Origin: Desulfovirgula sp.
Lineage (GTDB): Bacteria; Bacillota; Desulfotomaculia; Desulfotomaculales; Desulfocucumaceae
Assembly: GCA_020725625.1 (NCBI GenBank)
Contig: DYET01000170.1
Location: 1-61,171 of the forward strand
Direction: 5' to 3'
DNA length: 61,171 bases
The notes beneath the pieces are model-generated. The model saw nothing but the letters and a program-made list of their open reading frames with translations. It searched no databases and had not been told where the DNA came from. The stretch's first letter is position 1, and each line of letters begins with the position of its first letter. The translations under genes were made by a program, and so were the position numbers. This document shows, piece by piece, positions 22,445 to 32,452 of the stretch.

Positions 22445-24058
22445 GTGAGAATTCAAGGCAAAGAAATTACCACAAGTTCAGGAATTCCGGTGAAAAACAC
22501 TTATGCCCAGGAGGATATCAGTGGCCTTGATTTGACCAGAGACATAGGTTTGCCCGGCGAGCCGCCCTACCTGCGGGGGATATATCCCAACATGTACCGC
22601 GGCAGAATGTGGACCATCCGCCAGTTTTCGGGCTACGCCACGCCGGAGGAAACCAACGAGCGCTTTAAATACGAGTACGAAATGGGAGGAACCGGCTTTA
22701 GCATCGCCTTTGACGCGGTCACCGAAAACGGCCTGGATCCCGACGACGAGGGTGCTGAGGCCGATGTGGGGAGAGGCGGGGTGAACGTCTGCACCCTTAA
22801 GGACATGGAAACCATGTTCAAAGACCTTCCCATCGACAAAATCAGCACCGCCGTGATAGCCTCGCCATTCAGCGCTTGTCCCCTGTCGGCTATGTATTTC
22901 GCCCTGGCGGAAAATCGAGGCATAAGGCTCCGGGAATTGGACGGCACCACTCAGAACGACATCCTGTTGTTTACAGCCTGCTGCCATATTCCGGCAACAA
23001 TACCGCCACGCCACCTGATCGACCTGTGCGTGGACCTGGTCGAGTGGAGCGCCCAGAACGCCCCCAAGTGGCACCCGGTGAGCTTCGCCTCCTACAATTA
23101 CAGGGAAAACGGGCTGAACGCCTACCAGGAAGTAGCCCTGCTTTTTGCCAACGCCATCGAATACATAGAAAAGGAACTGAAAAGGAACAGGCTGCATATA
23201 GAGCAATTTGCGCCGGTGCTTTCGTTCCACATGGCAGCGCACAACGACATCCTGGAGGAAGTGGCAAAGTTCAGGGCCGCCCGGAGGATGTGGTACAGAA
23301 TTATGAAAGAAAGGTACGGGGTGAGTGATCCCAGGGCACAGGTGTTCCGCTTCCACGTCCAGACCTCTGGGTCCACCCACACCTACCAGCAGCCGCTGAA
23401 CAACATAGTCCGCATCGCCTACCAGGTTCTGGCGGCGGCCTTGGGGGGCGCCCAGTCAATTCACGCCAATTCATTTGACGAGGCCATCTGCCTGCCCACC
23501 GAGCTTAGCGTGCTGATTTCCATGCGGACCCAGCAGATATGCCAGTACGAAAGCGGAGTCACGGTAACGGCCGACCCCCTGGGTGGTTCCTACTACGTGG
23601 AGTGGCTGACCGGTGAGATTGAGCGCCGGGCATGGGAGTACATGGCCAGGGTGGAGGCTGCCGGCGGGCTGGTGAAAGCCCTGGAGTCCGGCTGGATCCA
23701 CAGGGAGTTCTTCAGGGCCATGGCCGATTATCAGAAAGAAATCCAGGAAGGGACCAGGAAGGTGGTGGGGGTGAACTGCTACGAGATGGAGGAAGAGCCC
23801 TACCAGTTCCCGGTTTTCCGCCCAAACCGGGGGTCTGCCGCCATCCAGAAAGCAAAGCTGGCCAGGATCAGGCTGGAGCGGGACAACGAGGAGGTAGAAA
23901 AGTGCATCCGCGAGGTCCGCGGGGCCACGGAAAGGGGCGAAAACGTCATGCCCTCCGTAATCAAGGCCGTTAAAGCTTACGCCTCCCTGGGGGAAATTTG
24001 CGATGTCTGGCGGGACATGTACGGGCTGTGGGAGGTGCCGATTTTAAAAATTGAATGA
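22445..24058 (+). CDS. Coenzyme-B12 acyl-CoA mutase, large subunit, unusual substrate pocket (mutase 1)
   Basis: A 537-residue large subunit of the methylmalonyl/isobutyryl-CoA mutase family, which rearranges carbon skeletons by radical chemistry. The TIM-barrel landmarks are clear: YPNMYRGRMWTIRQF, GTTQNDILL, FRAARRMWYRIM, QPLNNIVRIAYQ, LGGAQSIHANSFDEA and DPLGGSYYVEWLT. Aligned by eye to MCM numbering, Tyr89 is Phe (F61, as in isobutyryl-CoA mutase), Arg207 is Cys (C180; Gln in IcmA), and the near-invariant His244 is Asn (N218). That set fits neither MCM, ICM nor HCM, so the substrate is unknown. The B12 domain is the separate next gene. GTG 22445 follows AGGAGGTG. Confidence 0.92.
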   Translation: MRIQGKEITTSSGIPVKNTYAQEDISGLDLTRDIGLPGEPPYLRGIYPNMYRGRMWTIRQFSGYATPEETNERFKYEYEMGGTGFSIAFDAVTENGLDPDDEGAEADVGRGGVNVCTLKDMETMFKDLPIDKISTAVIASPFSACPLSAMYFALAENRGIRLRELDGTTQNDILLFTACCHIPATIPPRHLIDLCVDLVEWSAQNAPKWHPVSFASYNYRENGLNAYQEVALLFANAIEYIEKELKRNRLHIEQFAPVLSFHMAAHNDILEEVAKFRAARRMWYRIMKERYGVSDPRAQVFRFHVQTSGSTHTYQQPLNNIVRIAYQVLAAALGGAQSIHANSFDEAICLPTELSVLISMRTQQICQYESGVTVTADPLGGSYYVEWLTGEIERRAWEYMARVEAAGGLVKALESGWIHREFFRAMADYQKEIQEGTRKVVGVNCYEMEEEPYQFPVFRPNRGSAAIQKAKLARIRLERDNEEVEKCIREVRGATERGENVMPSVIKAVKAYASLGEICDVWRDMYGLWEVPILKIE

Positions 24059-25475: not shown

Positions 25476-25871
25476 ATGCCAGATCTTACCGGCCAGATGA
25501 AGGAAATGATTAAAAAGGGGCAGTGCCTGGTTGCCACCGCTGGGACCGACGGCAGGCCCAACATCGGACCCAAGGGGTCAGTGATGGTGGTTGATGGCTC
25601 TACCCTGGCCTTCGGGGAACTGGTGGGCCGGCAGACCTACCTCAATTTAAAGGAGAATCCCAAGGTGGCTATAGCGGTTGTGGACTACCAGCGGATGGCC
25701 GGCTACCGCTTTGTCGGCACCGCTTACCTGGAAACCGGTGGCCCGCTGTATGACAAGTTTGCCGAACTGTTTGAAAAGATGAAGCTGCCCCGGCCGGTGG
25801 CTGCCGTCAGGGTTGCCCTGGAAGAAATTTACGACCTTTCGGTAAAGAACCCCGGCAAGAAAATAAGTTAA
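25476..25871 (+). CDS. PPOX-family FMN-binding protein
   Basis: A 131-residue split-barrel protein of the pyridoxamine-phosphate-oxidase-like family. Typical features are CLVATAGTDGRPNIGPKGSVMV near the start (shown here only as ATAGTDGRPNIGPKG), TLAFGELVGRQTYLNL and KVAIAVVDYQ. Members bind FMN, F420 or haem, and small anaerobe versions are usually called flavin-nucleotide-binding proteins. AGGAGGG precedes ATG 25476. It is inside the B12-mutase operon, so a redox or protective role for that pathway is likely, but the reaction is unknown. Confidence 0.8.
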   Translation: MPDLTGQMKEMIKKGQCLVATAGTDGRPNIGPKGSVMVVDGSTLAFGELVGRQTYLNLKENPKVAIAVVDYQRMAGYRFVGTAYLETGGPLYDKFAELFEKMKLPRPVAAVRVALEEIYDLSVKNPGKKIS

Positions 25872-25886
25872 AGAGGGATGGTTCAG

Positions 25887-27335
25887 ATGGTGGGCATTGT
25901 CTCCTACGGTGTATACATTCCGCGTTACAGGCTGAAGAGGAAGTTGATTTTTTCCCAGATGGGCTGGTTCAACGGCGGCACCGCCGGCCTGGCCAGGGGG
26001 GAAAAGGCGGTTGCCAACTACGACGAGGACAGTATTACCATGGGTGTGGCCGCGTGCGTCAGTTGCTTGGAGGGTTTTGAGCGGGACAAAGTAGACGGGA
26101 TTTACCTGGCTTCGGTGTCACTTCCTTACGCCAACAGGCTAAACGCCTCCATTGTGGCCACCGCCCTTGATTGCGCGTCGGGAATAGGGACGGCGGACTT
26201 TGCCTCTTCGTTGAGGGCGGGGACCTCGGCCTTGATTTCGGCCGCCGACTCAGTCAAAGCGGAAACCAAGAAGGCTGTTCTCGTGTGTGCCGCCGACTGC
26301 CGCAAGGCCAAGATGGGGGGAAACCAGGAAATGATCCTGGGTGACGGGGCCGCCTCCTTCATGTTGGGCACCGGGAACGTCATAGCCGAGTTCCTGGGTT
26401 CTTATTCGGTTGCCTATGACTTTGTGGACCAGCGAAGGGGTTCCACGGACCAGTTTGACCAGGGCTGGGAGGAAAGGTGGGTTAGGGACGAGGGATACCT
26501 GAAGATTGTCCCGGAGGCGGTGGAGGGGCTGCTGAAGAAAAACGGCTGGAAAATAAGTGATTTTACAAAGGTTGTGATCGCCTGTTATTCAGGTCCGATC
26601 ATCGAGGCCGTGGCCAGGAAAATAGGCGCCGGAAGGGAGCAAATCCAGCCCAACCTGTATGACGAGGTAGGGGATACCGGCACCGCCCATCCCCTGATCA
26701 TGCTGGCCGCAGCCCTGGAAGAGGCCGGTCCCGGCGATAAGATTCTGGTGGCCGGCTTCGGCGGCGGCTGTGACGTCATCTGCTTCCGGGCAACCGAAGC
26801 GATCAGCGGCAGCCGCAGGCAGGAAACAGGCAAGTGTCTCAATAACCGTGAGGAACTGGACAGCTATATGAAGTACCTGGTATTTCGCGGTCTAGTTCCC
26901 CTAGATGTGGGAATCAGGGGTGAAATTGTGGCCAATACCTCACTTTCCCTGGTCTGGAGGGACAGACGTGAGATATACGGGCTTTGCGGTTCCAGGTGCA
27001 GGGTGTGCGGCACACCCCAGTTTCCCTATCAGGAGATCTGCGTGAACCCGGAATGCGGGGCCGTGGGCCGGATGGAAATGTACAGGTTTTCAGACAAAAA
27101 AGGAAGGGTGGTAAGCTTTACCGGCGATTATCTGGCCTTCAGCCCGGCCCCTCCATCCATCTACGGGTTCGTCGATTTTGAGGGCGGGGGCAGGTTTTTC
27201 TTCGATTTCACCGACTGCGGGCTGGAGGACATCAAAGTCGGCATGCCGGTGAAAATGAGCTTTCGCAGGCGCTACACGGATCCGGACCGGGCAATCGTCG
27301 GTTACGGCTGGAAGGCAGTACCGCTAAAGGAATAA
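25887..27335 (+). CDS. HMG-CoA-synthase-like protein without catalytic residues, fused to DUF35 Zn-ribbon/OB domain
   Basis: A 482-residue two-part protein. Residues 1-300 follow the archaeal-type HMG-CoA synthase fold (GIVSYGVYIPRYRLKR, DEDSITMGVAA, LGDGAASFMLG, DEVGDTGTAHPLIML). By-eye alignment puts Val77 at the catalytic Glu, Leu109 at the nucleophilic Cys (TADFASSLRAGT) and Ala232 at the His, so it cannot be a normal synthase. The C-terminus is a DUF35 unit: a four-Cys zinc ribbon (CRVCG ... CVNPEC) then an OB fold. In archaea DUF35 joins thiolase and HMG-CoA synthase; here it probably docks the adjacent thiolase. ATG 25887 is spaced better from AGAGGG than ATG 25878. Confidence 0.85.
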   Translation: MVGIVSYGVYIPRYRLKRKLIFSQMGWFNGGTAGLARGEKAVANYDEDSITMGVAACVSCLEGFERDKVDGIYLASVSLPYANRLNASIVATALDCASGIGTADFASSLRAGTSALISAADSVKAETKKAVLVCAADCRKAKMGGNQEMILGDGAASFMLGTGNVIAEFLGSYSVAYDFVDQRRGSTDQFDQGWEERWVRDEGYLKIVPEAVEGLLKKNGWKISDFTKVVIACYSGPIIEAVARKIGAGREQIQPNLYDEVGDTGTAHPLIMLAAALEEAGPGDKILVAGFGGGCDVICFRATEAISGSRRQETGKCLNNREELDSYMKYLVFRGLVPLDVGIRGEIVANTSLSLVWRDRREIYGLCGSRCRVCGTPQFPYQEICVNPECGAVGRMEMYRFSDKKGRVVSFTGDYLAFSPAPPSIYGFVDFEGGGRFFFDFTDCGLEDIKVGMPVKMSFRRRYTDPDRAIVGYGWKAVPLKE

Positions 27336-27355
27336 GGAAAAGGGAGAGATAAGCT

Positions 27356-28567
27356 ATGGCCTCAGGGATCAGGGACAAGGTTGCCGTTATCGGCATGGGG
27401 TGTACAAAATTCGGCGAGCTGTGGGATAAGAGCTACCAGGACCTGATGGTGGAGGCGGTGCAGGAGGCCCTGATGGATGCCGGGATAGAAAAAAAGGACA
27501 TCCAGCAGGCATACTTGGGAACGGTTTTTGACGAGGTTTTTGCGGGAAAAAGCTCCCTGCCCCTGTCGGAGACCCTGAAGCTGCCCTTCATACCCGCAAC
27601 AAGGGTGGAAAACTACTGTGCCACCGGGTCCGAGGCCCTGAGGTGGGCGGTCTACGCCGTGGCCTCAGGAGCCTGCGACATCGCCATGGCGGTGGGCGTC
27701 GAGAAGCTGAAGGACATCGGCTTTGGCGGCCTGCCGGATTTTTCCTTCCTTCTCGGGACAAAAAACAGGGTTCTCCAGCCCAATATTACCGCACCCGGAA
27801 TGTTTGCCCAACTGGCCGCCAGCTACTTTACCAAGTACGGCATTGATCCGGAACGGGGCAAGAAGGCGTTGGCTTTGATTTCGGCAAAGAGTCACCACAA
27901 CGCCTTGCTGAACCCCAGGGCCCACCTGAGAAAGGAGATCAGCGTCGACCAGGCCTGCGGTGCGCCCATGGTGGCCTGGCCCCTTGGACTGTATGACTGC
28001 TGCGGCGTCAGCGACGGCGCGGCCTGCGCCATCCTGTGCCGGGCCGACAGGGCCAGGGAATTCAGGCCGGACCCTGTTTACATAAAGGCATGCCAGGTCG
28101 CATCAACGTCAGGGGAGGAAAAGGGGTACACCAAGTATGACTCCACTTACATAGAGCCAGCATACCGGGCGGCTATAGCCGCCTACAGGGAAGCGGGGAT
28201 AACCGATCCCAGGAAGGAAATAAGCATGCTGGAGGTGCACGACTGCTTTTCCATAACGGAACTGGTCACCTACGAGGACCTTTTAATCTCCGGGCGAGGG
28301 AAGGCTATCTACGACATTGAAGACGGGTTTTTTAACCTGGACGGCAAGATTCCCTGCCAGCCCAGCGGGGGCCTCAAGTGCTTCGGGCACCCCATCGGCG
28401 CCTCCGGCCTGAGAATGGGGTACGAGATTTACAAGCAGCTTCAGGGAAAAGCCGAATTTCCCGAAAGGCAGATAAAGGATCCACGCATAGGTCTCACTCA
28501 TAACGTCGGCGGTTTCCCGGCCTACGCCGTCTGTTCCGTCACCATATACGGCAGGGATCCGGGCTAG
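27356..28567 (+). CDS. SCP2/SCPx-type thiolase
   Basis: A 403-residue thiolase-superfamily enzyme. The acylated nucleophile is Cys88 (ENYCATGSEA), the SCP2-type HDCF motif is at 295-298 and the catalytic His345 is in FGHPIGASG. The second classic Cys motif is replaced by THNVGGFPA, as in SCPx thiolases. Since Cys88 is present it is more likely a true thiolase than an Ltp2-type aldolase. It directly follows the HMGCS-like/DUF35 gene, recalling BbsAB and the archaeal thiolase-HMGCS-DUF35 complex. It should cleave a bulky or branched 3-oxoacyl-CoA. Confidence 0.9.
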   Translation: MASGIRDKVAVIGMGCTKFGELWDKSYQDLMVEAVQEALMDAGIEKKDIQQAYLGTVFDEVFAGKSSLPLSETLKLPFIPATRVENYCATGSEALRWAVYAVASGACDIAMAVGVEKLKDIGFGGLPDFSFLLGTKNRVLQPNITAPGMFAQLAASYFTKYGIDPERGKKALALISAKSHHNALLNPRAHLRKEISVDQACGAPMVAWPLGLYDCCGVSDGAACAILCRADRAREFRPDPVYIKACQVASTSGEEKGYTKYDSTYIEPAYRAAIAAYREAGITDPRKEISMLEVHDCFSITELVTYEDLLISGRGKAIYDIEDGFFNLDGKIPCQPSGGLKCFGHPIGASGLRMGYEIYKQLQGKAEFPERQIKDPRIGLTHNVGGFPAYAVCSVTIYGRDPG

Positions 28568-29022: not shown

Positions 29023-29037
29023 AGGGGGATGATCACG

Positions 29038-30717
29038 GTGGATAATGAAAAATTGAGGACGGCGGAGAAAAAGTGGCGGCAAGAGTACCTCAAAACCCTG
29101 CAGAAGCTGCCCGGGCGCAGGGAAGAATTCAAAAACGCATCTGGAATCACGCTCAAGCCGCTGTACACCCCCCTGGACCTGGAGGGCTTCGACTATCTTG
29201 AAAAGCTTGGCTATCCCTGTGAATTCCCCTACACCCGGGGGATTTACCCGGGGATGTACCGCACCAGGACCTGGAGCAAAAGGATGCTGGTGGGCTATGA
29301 AGGCCCGGAGCATTACAACCGCCGGCAGAGGGAAATGCTTGCCAGGGGTCAAACCGCCATCAATTTTTTGCCCTGTAACACCTTCTTCCGGGGCTACGAC
29401 GTGGATCAGGTGGAGAAGGAACTTGTGGGCACCTGCGGGACTCCGGTGAACATTCTCGAAGACATGGCCATTGCCTTTGAGGGGATTCCCCTGGAGGAGA
29501 TAAGCGTTTCGTTCAACGATTCCGGGCCCTTTACGGGAGTAGCCATGCTTTTTGCCCTGGCCCGGGAGCGGGGGGTTCCCCTGGACCGTCTGAAGGGGAC
29601 CACCAGCCAGTCGGATTTCATCTCCCATTTCTCCGGCGGCTGCAATATGTACTTTCGCCTGTCTCTGGAAGGACACCTGAGGATGTTTGTCGACCATGTC
29701 AAGTTTTGCACCCAGAAGGTGCCCAGCTGGCACCCGGTGAGCATCATCGGCCAGCACTTCCAGGACAGCGGGGCGACCCCGGTGCAGAGCCTGGCCTTTA
29801 CTCTGGCCAGCGGGATTTTCTACGTGGACCAACTGATCAGGTCGGGCCTTAACGTGGATTCCTTCGCCCCCCGGCTCAGCTTCTTCTTCGCCGCTTCCGT
29901 CAGCCTTTTCGAGGAGGTGGCCAAGTTCCGGGCCGGGAGAAGGATGTGGGCAAAGATTATGAGGGACCGCTTCGGCGCCAAAGACCACCGGTCCATGCAG
30001 TTCAGGTTTCACGTCCAGTCCCAGGGTTCGGACCTCACCCGGCAGCAGCCCCTGAACAACATTACCCGTGTCTGCATCCAGGCCTTGTCGGCGATACTGG
30101 GCGGGGCCCAGTCAATCCACACCGACGCTTACGATGAGGCCTACCAGACTCCCACCGAGGAGACAGCCAGGATCGCCCTGATGACCCAGAACATCATCGA
30201 GGAAGAAAGCGGGGTGGCCGATGTGATCGACCCCCTGGGGGGTTCGTATTATTTGGAGAAATTGACCGACGAGACCGAGGAACTGGCCTGGCAGTACATT
30301 GAAAAAATCGACCAGATGGGTGGGATGTTGGAGTCGGTAAAAAAAGGTTACGTCCAGAGGGAAATCGGTATTGCCGCCTACGAACACCAGAAGGCGGTGG
30401 ACAGCGGGCGAAAAGTGGTGGTTGGGGTGAACAAGTACCAAATTTCCGAGGAGCAGGAATTCAAGTTAAAATGGGGCAAGCCAGACCCGGAGGAGGTGGA
30501 AAGACACGTTCAGAGGATCAGATCACACCGGCGGAACAGGGACCAGGCAGGGGTGAAGGCAGCATTGAAGGCTTTCCGGGAAGCCGCCCTGGATAAAGAA
30601 AGGAACCTGTTTGAGGCCACCCTGGAGGCCGTTGAAAAAGGGGCCACCCACGGGGAAATCGTCGGAGAAATGCGAGAGATGTTCGGCTACGGTTTACCTC
30701 TCACCGAGGGCATTTAG
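29038..30717 (+). CDS. Coenzyme-B12 acyl-CoA mutase, large subunit, strongly divergent pocket (mutase 2)
   Basis: A 559-residue large subunit, the size of IcmA/HcmA. Family landmarks are YPGMYRTRTWS, FAPRLSFFFAA, FRAGRRMWAKIM, QQPLNNITRV, LGGAQSIHTDAYDEA and DPLGGSYYLEKLT. The normally invariant TIRQ(Y/F/I) reads SKRML, placing Leu84 at MCM Tyr89 (Ile90 in 2-hydroxyisobutyryl-CoA mutase). Asn109 falls near the HCM hydroxyl-binding Asp117, Gly201 at Arg207, and His240 keeps His244. The pocket thus looks larger, aliphatic and with a polar contact, suggesting a hydroxyacyl or bulky substrate; this is inference. GTG 29038 is preferred to ATG 29029 by ribosome-site spacing. Confidence 0.9.
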   Translation: MDNEKLRTAEKKWRQEYLKTLQKLPGRREEFKNASGITLKPLYTPLDLEGFDYLEKLGYPCEFPYTRGIYPGMYRTRTWSKRMLVGYEGPEHYNRRQREMLARGQTAINFLPCNTFFRGYDVDQVEKELVGTCGTPVNILEDMAIAFEGIPLEEISVSFNDSGPFTGVAMLFALARERGVPLDRLKGTTSQSDFISHFSGGCNMYFRLSLEGHLRMFVDHVKFCTQKVPSWHPVSIIGQHFQDSGATPVQSLAFTLASGIFYVDQLIRSGLNVDSFAPRLSFFFAASVSLFEEVAKFRAGRRMWAKIMRDRFGAKDHRSMQFRFHVQSQGSDLTRQQPLNNITRVCIQALSAILGGAQSIHTDAYDEAYQTPTEETARIALMTQNIIEEESGVADVIDPLGGSYYLEKLTDETEELAWQYIEKIDQMGGMLESVKKGYVQREIGIAAYEHQKAVDSGRKVVVGVNKYQISEEQEFKLKWGKPDPEEVERHVQRIRSHRRNRDQAGVKAALKAFREAALDKERNLFEATLEAVEKGATHGEIVGEMREMFGYGLPLTEGI

Positions 30718-30829
30718 GCAGGCTGAGAAACCCGGAACTGTCCGGGCCGGTACACTGAACTTGTTACTGCAGGGGATGACACAGAGGAATGCAGAAAATT
30801 TTTAATATTACAAACAAGGGGTGTTAAAG

Positions 30830-32452
30830 TTGACCGGTTATGTCAAGGCAACCCCTGAGAGGATCAGGGAATTTATCAGGATAAACCGGGAGAAATGGAT
30901 GGGCAGCCTGATCATACCCAATATAATCAGGAAAACGTTGGCGGAGTACCCGGATAACATTGCCTTGGTGGAGGCCGAGACCGGGAAGTTCTGGACCTAC
31001 CGCCAGTTTGACGAGGAATCAAACAGGCTTGCCAATGGGTTGAAGAGGCTGGGGGTGAAGAGAGGGGACATGGTAGCCCAGATCCACCCCAATCACCCCC
31101 TATTCCACACCGGATACATGGCTATCCAAAAAATAGGCGCGACCAACGTGCCGCTTAACCCCCGCTACGTGGCGAGGGAATTCGAGTATGTAATCGACCA
31201 CTCGGATGCGGTTGCCCTGCTTATGGACGAGGCCTTTGTTCCGGTAATCAGGGAAATCCGCCCTAAGCTGACCAAGCTGAAGCACATTATAGTTCTTTCA
31301 GAAAAGGCCCCGGAGGGGATGATTACTTACCGGGAGTTGCTGGAAAGCGGGTCGCCTGATCCCGTGGAGGAGAATGTGCTTGAGGAGGACGTTTCATCCC
31401 TGCTTTACACGTCAGGGACTACAGGCGTTCCCAAAGGGGTGATGCTCACTCACCTCAACTGCCTGTCCCAGGCCATCATGACTTCGGAAGTCTTTGGCTT
31501 CCAGCCCACCGACATATTCCTGGACATGCTGCCGTATTTCCACTGTCAGTACCAGTGCTTTATCATTCCGTCCTTCATGACCGGCTTGACTCTTCTGTCG
31601 ATGAAGGTCTTTGACCCGGTCCTGTGCATGGAGGCAATAGCCAAGTACAAAGCCACCGTTACCCTTTTTGTGCCAGCCATGCACAATTCCTACCTGATCC
31701 TCCCGGGCTTCAAGGAAAAATACATCGACGGCAAAACCGGCACGGTGAGGCTGCACCTCTACGGCGGGTCCATCATGCCCTATCCCACCATCGTAAAGCT
31801 TAGGGAGTGGTGGCCGGGAGTAAAGCTGCAGAACATATTCGGCATGACCGAGACCTGTGCTGCCGTAACCAGCCTTACCGACGAGTACGCCCTGGACAAA
31901 ATTGCCTCTGTGGGGCCCAGCCTTTCCCACATAGACCTCAGGATCGTCGACGACAACGAAAATGACACCGATACCGGGGAAATTTTGGCCTGGGGGCCCA
32001 CGGTCATGAAGGGCTATTACAAGAACCCCGGGGCGACGGCGGAGGCCCTCAGGGGGGGGTGGTACCACACCGGGGACATAGGTAGAATGGACCAGGACGG
32101 CTTCCTGTATATCGTGGACAGGAAAAAGGACATGATTGTCCGTGGGGGTGAAAACATTTATCCCGCCGAGGTGGAAAAGGTCCTCCTGGAGCACCCCGCA
32201 GTGGCCGAGACGGCGGTCATCGGTGTGCCCGATCCCCGCCTGCAGGAGAAGGTCAAGGCTTTTGTGGCTTTTAAAAAGGGACAGAGCGCCAGCGAGGAGG
32301 AACTGGTGGCCCACTGCATGAAAAACATGGCCAAGTACAAAGTGCCGCAGCTCTGGGAGTTCGTCGACGCACTGCCGAGAAATGCCATGGGCAAGATTCT
32401 GAAGGGCAGCCTGCGGGAGGGCAGGATAACGGATGTTCATACAGTCGGTTAG
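30830..32452 (+). CDS. AMP-forming acyl-CoA synthetase (catabolic cluster)
   Basis: A 540-residue ANL-superfamily enzyme that activates a carboxylic acid with ATP and CoA. Visible motifs are LLYTSGTTGVPKGVMLTH (A3), FGMTETCAAV (A5), GWYHTGDIGRMD (A7), VDRKKDMIVRGGENIYPAEVE (A8, hinge; shown only in part as RKKDMIVRGGEN) and the catalytic Lys in NAMGKILKGSL (A10). TTG 30830 fits the AAGGGGTG site; GTG 30821 is an alternative. It follows mutase 2 by about 110 bases and probably activates the pathway substrate. Confidence 0.93.
   Translation: MTGYVKATPERIREFIRINREKWMGSLIIPNIIRKTLAEYPDNIALVEAETGKFWTYRQFDEESNRLANGLKRLGVKRGDMVAQIHPNHPLFHTGYMAIQKIGATNVPLNPRYVAREFEYVIDHSDAVALLMDEAFVPVIREIRPKLTKLKHIIVLSEKAPEGMITYRELLESGSPDPVEENVLEEDVSSLLYTSGTTGVPKGVMLTHLNCLSQAIMTSEVFGFQPTDIFLDMLPYFHCQYQCFIIPSFMTGLTLLSMKVFDPVLCMEAIAKYKATVTLFVPAMHNSYLILPGFKEKYIDGKTGTVRLHLYGGSIMPYPTIVKLREWWPGVKLQNIFGMTETCAAVTSLTDEYALDKIASVGPSLSHIDLRIVDDNENDTDTGEILAWGPTVMKGYYKNPGATAEALRGGWYHTGDIGRMDQDGFLYIVDRKKDMIVRGGENIYPAEVEKVLLEHPAVAETAVIGVPDPRLQEKVKAFVAFKKGQSASEEELVAHCMKNMAKYKVPQLWEFVDALPRNAMGKILKGSLREGRITDVHTVG

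Follow-up and report, generated by a model that had tools for sequence, protein, structure and literature searches.

A catalytically inactive HMG-CoA-synthase-like protein fused to DUF35 as a probable non-catalytic subunit of an SCP2-type thiolase complex

The window analyzed here, a 61,171-nucleotide stretch of DNA from Desulfovirgula sp., encodes a fusion of an HMG-CoA-synthase (HMGCS)-like domain and a DUF35 domain that is probably a non-catalytic scaffold or pocket subunit of a hetero-oligomeric SCP2-type thiolase complex. Four findings underlie this proposal: the loss of catalytic residues throughout the family of fused proteins, the intact active site of the accompanying thiolase, the adjacency of the two genes, and the confident predicted joint fold of one homologous pair. 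The assembly in Desulfovirgula sp., the pocket role, and the pathway served are what we infer. The features of the window on which the argument draws are as follows.

25878..27335, plus strand: fusion of a pseudo-HMG-CoA synthase (aa ~4-340) and a DUF35 zinc ribbon/OB portion (aa ~359-485); open reading frame, Pfam, NCBIfam, and PDB matches
26952..27335, plus strand: DUF35 portion of the fusion (aa ~359-485), with a Cys4 ribbon (C374/C377/C388/C393) and an OB fold; PF01796 and 6esq_E match
27356..28567, plus strand: SCP2-type thiolase with intact catalytic residues (Cys88, His295, Cys297, His345); NF004810, 6esq_A, and residue survey
30821..32452, plus strand: AMP-forming acyl-CoA synthetase, in the same gene run as the fusion; PF00501/PF13193
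32469..33314, plus strand: MaoC / MFE-2-type (2E)-enoyl-CoA hydratase 2; PF01575 and PF22622
33340..34104, plus strand: SDR, probable 3-hydroxyacyl-CoA dehydrogenase; PF13561/PF00106

Domain architecture of the fused protein

In the open reading frame list of the window, the fusion gene (25878-27335, plus strand) encodes 485 aa, and a second ATG at 25887, corresponding to Met4 of this form, agrees with the conserved start of the homologues. Pfam assigns ACP_syn_III_C to aa 219-299; a second hit, PF01796 at aa 406-463, scores above its cut-off and represents the OB domain of DUF35. Matches to the HMG-CoA synthase models fall short of the curated equivalog scores: the archaeal-type model NF003274 matches with an E-value of 9e-64 and 215.7 bits, under its cut-off of 244, and TIGR00748 scores 150.4, below its cut-off of 353.35. 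When phmmer was run against the PDB, aa 4-340 matched the HMGCS chain 6esq_I and aa 359-485 the DUF35 chain 6esq_E, such that both halves of the protein are covered by chains from one solved complex, 6ESQ; PhlA (5m3k_A) was also matched.

The AlphaFold2 model of the fused protein (mean pLDDT 94, pTM 0.94) contains the HMGCS fold, for which the best Foldseek match is 6esq_I (TM 0.91 on the target), with PhlA and MucABC chains following among the top matches. Membership of the second half in DUF35 is borne out by the succession of a Cys4 ribbon and an OB fold; the ribbon is retained in 100/100 fused homologues, and its four Cys are invariant across an alignment of 74. The initial, sequence-only reading of this locus, referred to here as the first-pass annotation, held that the fold and the zinc ribbon/OB domain had been kept, and the structural match and the Cys4 survey agree.

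Loss of the HMG-CoA synthase catalytic residues

Alignment with the archaeal HMGCS of 6ESQ places Glu82, Cys114, and His238 (the latter within VFHQP) opposite V80, L112, and A235, as numbered in the 485-aa form. Counted from Met4, these become V77, L109, and A232, the very replacements that the first-pass annotation had named. A survey of fused homologues demonstrates that the same three residues are lost in all of them (Glu 0/100, Cys 0/100, His 0/100), and a search for a substitute Cys-His-Glu set in the alignment of 99 fused homologues found none, in the window protein no intact set being present elsewhere in the domain. Together, the survey and the alignment rule out a hidden intact active site, and the earlier supposition that the synthase domain is inactive is, as judged from sequence, supported by the family-wide loss. 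Because the loss runs through the whole fused family, recent gene decay within a single genome is likewise ruled out.

The pattern of conservation that remains bears on whether the domain may have been re-purposed rather than reduced to a scaffold, namely whether it binds CoA or acyl-CoA, gates the substrate or hands it to the thiolase, or carries a new activity, with Claisen chemistry lost. The segment surrounding the lost Glu (Glu82 of 6ESQ) is conserved, with a mean entropy of 0.97 versus 1.58 bits, and features a Thr in 88/99 fused homologues; part of the pocket is therefore still constrained, and some ligand role is possible. In addition, D156 and E198 are near-invariant in the fused family, and neither residue occurs in Mt HMGCS, PhlA, MucA, or the split relatives. 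For the 6ESQ complex, CoA is described as lying at a site between the three subunits (PMC6392133). Counter to this, the former Cys position holds L, Q, I, T, or still other residues among the 99 aligned fused homologues and the former Asn position of the synthase varies among D, E, and N, so that no new, fixed nucleophile stands in for the Cys. On this evidence a re-purposed domain appears unlikely, and a non-catalytic subunit remains the preferred reading.

The partner thiolase and its pairing with the fusion

The thiolase gene begins 20 nt downstream of the fusion gene, and its product has the motifs of an SCP2-type thiolase: the nucleophile Cys, HDCF, and GHP. The acetyl-CoA acetyltransferase model NF004810 matches it with 594.8 bits, above the cut-off of 403, and its best PDB match is 6esq_A (217 bits), compared with 78 bits for PhlC. 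An identity as an Ltp2-type retro-aldolase was considered and ruled out, because the nucleophile Cys and HDCF remain in place. Retention of these residues is general: thiolases adjoining fused homologues keep Cys88 and His295 in 99/99 cases and His345 in 98/98.

Adjacency is equally widespread, with a same-strand thiolase located at most 350 nt from the fusion in 88/100 loci. Among the remaining 12/100, the thiolase is missing from ten because the contig ends there, one is interrupted near a transposase-like open reading frame, and one carries its thiolase 3.3 kb downstream. Within the genome of Desulfovirgula sp. itself, the six thiolases closest to that of the window (itself included) are exactly the six that adjoin a pseudo-HMGCS; apart from the window's own, four of these display 53-67% identity and one, beside an unfused form, 40%, and the other thiolases of the genome reach at most 41%. 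Distance matrices of fusion and thiolase are correlated (r = 0.86), a value to which shared descent contributes as a confounder.

As the two window genes are not in frame, the pair of locus L037, which is naturally in frame and whose two members share 57% and 66% identity with their window counterparts, was modelled in its place as one chain read through the intergenic stops, using an alignment of 19 paired and 85 unpaired rows. Judged by its scores, and for this partner pair alone, the resulting single-chain model has a mean pLDDT of 92 and a pTM of 0.88. Only the artificial linker is disordered. Given that the thiolase makes up 44% of this chain, a pTM of 0.88 would be hard to reach if the thiolase had no fixed place in the model, with the caveat that the linker is short and that thiolase-fold domains can form pseudo-dimers in silico.

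These findings also speak to the prospect that the fusion and the thiolase are merely co-transcribed beta-oxidation genes whose products do not interact, to which we accord a very small chance: adjacency is near-universal across phyla, the predicted joint fold of the L037 pair is confident, and homologous complexes (6ESQ, PhlABC, and MucABC) have been solved. Taken together, residue loss, adjacency, the homologous-pair fold at pTM 0.88, and the precedents of 6ESQ and PhlABC indicate that the fusion is very probably a thiolase subunit, as the first-pass annotation had envisaged. The interpretation offered there is thereby supported in part, its further suggestions of CoA holding and of an unusual 3-oxoacyl-CoA as substrate being conjectural.

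Distribution and phylogeny of the family

A profile search with an alignment of the paralogues of the Desulfovirgula sp. genome yielded 80 loci, whereas a query with the window protein alone yielded none. The 80 loci span the Desulfobacterota, Chloroflexota, Actinomycetota, Bacillota, Myxococcota, and Bacteroidota as well as two euryarchaeal records, and the genome itself holds four further fused paralogues, one unfused relative, and one lone DUF35 match. Phylogenetic analysis groups the fused proteins in a clade of their own (support 100/99), PhlA and MucA with archaeal HMGCS (97/99), and the unfused dead relatives in a separate clade. An AU test is compatible with catalysis having been lost only once (p 0.35); the tree, in which PhlA joins archaeal HMGCS, does not show such a single event.

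A second HMGCS-like lineage, mostly unfused, comprises L006 (on contig C125 of the Desulfovirgula sp. genome), L021, and L023-L027; it has lost Cys and Glu, often retains His, and also adjoins SCP2 thiolases. Separately, the proteins of L117-L121 and L122 lack the catalytic Glu and Cys and yet score above the curated cut-off of NF003274, and automatic annotation will therefore label dead proteins as HMG-CoA synthase.

Comparison with known complexes

The closest solved relatives of all three window domains are found in the archaeal 6ESQ complex. Its synthase is active (Glu82, Cys114), in contrast to the synthase-like domain of the window, which is also fused to DUF35. In both 6ESQ and PhlABC, DUF35 bridges the HMGCS-like dimer and the thiolase dimer.

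For a dead subunit within a thiolase-DUF35 complex, the closest precedent is PhlABC/MucABC (PDB 5M3K, 9SKH, 9VBO), which the first-pass annotation missed. Like the window pair, these systems combine DUF35 with an HMGCS-like subunit from which Cys and Glu are missing and with a catalytic thiolase-fold partner; PhlA is without Cys and Glu, catalysis is carried out by PhlC residues only, and both PhlA and PhlB are required for a functional complex (PMC6392133). As the A subunit of PhlABC/MucABC also lacks Cys and Glu, the core idea of an inactive synthase in such a complex is not new in itself. Several differences are nonetheless evident: PhlABC/MucABC are encoded by three separate genes, whereas the HMGCS-like and DUF35 parts are fused in the window; their thiolase-fold subunit acylates phenols or tetramates, in contrast to the conventional SCP2-type thiolase that accompanies the window fusion; and the window-type genes, unlike theirs, sit in beta-oxidation runs. 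The apparent novelty lies in the fused architecture, which defines a large uncharacterized family located in (3R)-type beta-oxidation operons, and no paper describing this family was found in the literature covered, which was mainly open access.

Could the window pair then be no thiolase complex but a CoA-independent C-acyltransferase of the PhlABC type? In both sequence and fold, the fusion has PhlA, which is likewise dead, as one of its best PDB matches, so that the PhlABC-type A subunit is present; the matching feature on the other side, a PhlC-like protein as closest relative of the partner, is absent. The partner is nearer to 6esq_A than to PhlC and passes the acetyl-CoA acetyltransferase cut-off, the genes lie in runs for CoA-ester beta-oxidation, and the fused clade stands apart from PhlA in the tree, all of which make such an acyltransferase improbable. 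Finally, that the protein is a functional HMG-CoA synthase whose catalytic residues lie at other positions has a next to negligible probability, since, despite the HMGCS fold and the match to NF003274, every catalytic position is replaced in 100/100 fused homologues, the score lies under the equivalog cut-off, and one euryarchaeon keeps an intact E-C-H synthase (L147) in its genome beside the dead fused copy (L156).

Two further systems resemble parts of the thiolase complex proposed here. The benzoylsuccinyl-CoA thiolase BbsAB (PDB 7PXP), which acts in anaerobic degradation, is likewise built from an SCP2-type thiolase and a zinc-binding DUF35 subunit. Against the window thiolase, the BbsB model NF053628 scores 152.2 bits, below its cut-off of 750. 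An HMGCS-like component is, to our knowledge, lacking in BbsAB. The peroxisomal MFE-2/SCPx system comprises a hydratase 2, an SDR dehydrogenase, an SCP2 domain, and an SCP2 thiolase, a set that the window-type genes resemble; we know of no HMGCS-like or DUF35 part in either MFE-2 or SCPx.

Genomic context

Gene runs similar to that of the window occur in organisms of differing lifestyles. On plasmids of the aerobes Variovorax and Sphingomonas, SDR, MaoC, dead HMGCS-DUF35, and thiolase genes lie consecutively; here the fusion is annotated as an OB-fold protein, and all three catalytic positions are lost as well. Desulfosarcina alkanivorans and many other Desulfobacterota encode an extended version to which an SDR and an SCP2 domain have been added, and this longer protein (~917 aa) comes directly after a MaoC-SDR-SCP2 protein and precedes an SCP2 thiolase; the pseudo-HMGCS-DUF35-SDR-SCP2 chain is located at L105:9983-12733, with similar ones at loci L047, L061, L073, and L109. 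Judged by its domains, the Desulfobacterota arrangement seems to be a prokaryotic equivalent of MFE-2 combined with SCPx in peroxisomes.

Also in the window, a pyridoxamine-phosphate-oxidase-like flavoprotein (25476-25871; PF01243) is encoded between MeaB and the dead HMGCS, and two B12-mutase large subunits (22445-24058 and 29029-30717) have 2-hydroxyisobutyryl-CoA mutase as their best PDB match. In methylmalonyl-CoA mutase, an Arg binds the carboxylate, and a conserved His lies in the active site. Both window mutases lack this Arg, and in that at 22445-24058 Asn replaces the His, as it does in the mutases adjoining dead HMGCS at loci L039, L040, and L041. The 3.1 Mb genome as a whole contains about nine matches to mutase large subunits and a dozen or more to SCP2-type thiolases (on contigs C20, C26, C107, C148, C175, C195, and others), which suggests that its acyl-CoA degradation is unusually broad.

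A B12 mutase is also encoded in the clusters for acetone metabolism of Desulfotomaculum arcticum and D. geothermicum, and the D. arcticum cluster additionally contains a DUF35 protein and acetyl-CoA acetyltransferases (PMC8084838). A role in acetone metabolism was set aside for the window genes because no thiamine-diphosphate enzyme was seen among those annotated, which are part of the window's genes.

A model for the complex and its significance

In the mechanism that we propose, the HMGCS-like domain retains its fold without its former chemistry, and the fused DUF35 zinc ribbon/OB portion would bridge the HMGCS-like and thiolase parts as in 6ESQ and PhlABC. The complex would probably resemble 6ESQ with the second active site switched off, C-C cleavage of a 3-oxoacyl-CoA being performed by the thiolase alone, while the pseudo-synthase and DUF35 would keep the oligomer assembled and seal the cavity for CoA and substrate on one side. 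In the window, this complex may serve a beta-oxidation run together with the CoA ligase, the MaoC hydratase 2, and the SDR dehydrogenase, the thiolase completing the set. More broadly, we lean, by a modest degree, toward the view that the large, cross-phylum family of dead HMGCS-DUF35 proteins constitutes an indispensable component of SCP2-type thiolases that form a class of their own, and that in Desulfobacterota its extension to a pseudo-HMGCS-DUF35-SDR-SCP2 chain ties the 3-hydroxyacyl-CoA dehydrogenase to the thiolase in a peroxisome-like (MFE-2/SCPx) prokaryotic beta-oxidation assembly.

Proteins of the fused family appear in databases as HMG-CoA synthase, OB-fold protein, or hypothetical protein, and a component that is widely shared in acyl-CoA degradation, by anaerobes and aerobes alike, is therefore overlooked or misnamed. 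If confirmed, the role proposed here would add one that is purely non-catalytic to the uses of the HMGCS fold within thiolase-DUF35 complexes, would help to explain the possible failure of thiolases from such clusters when expressed alone, and would provide a testable model for the coupling of dehydrogenase and thiolase within one assembly.
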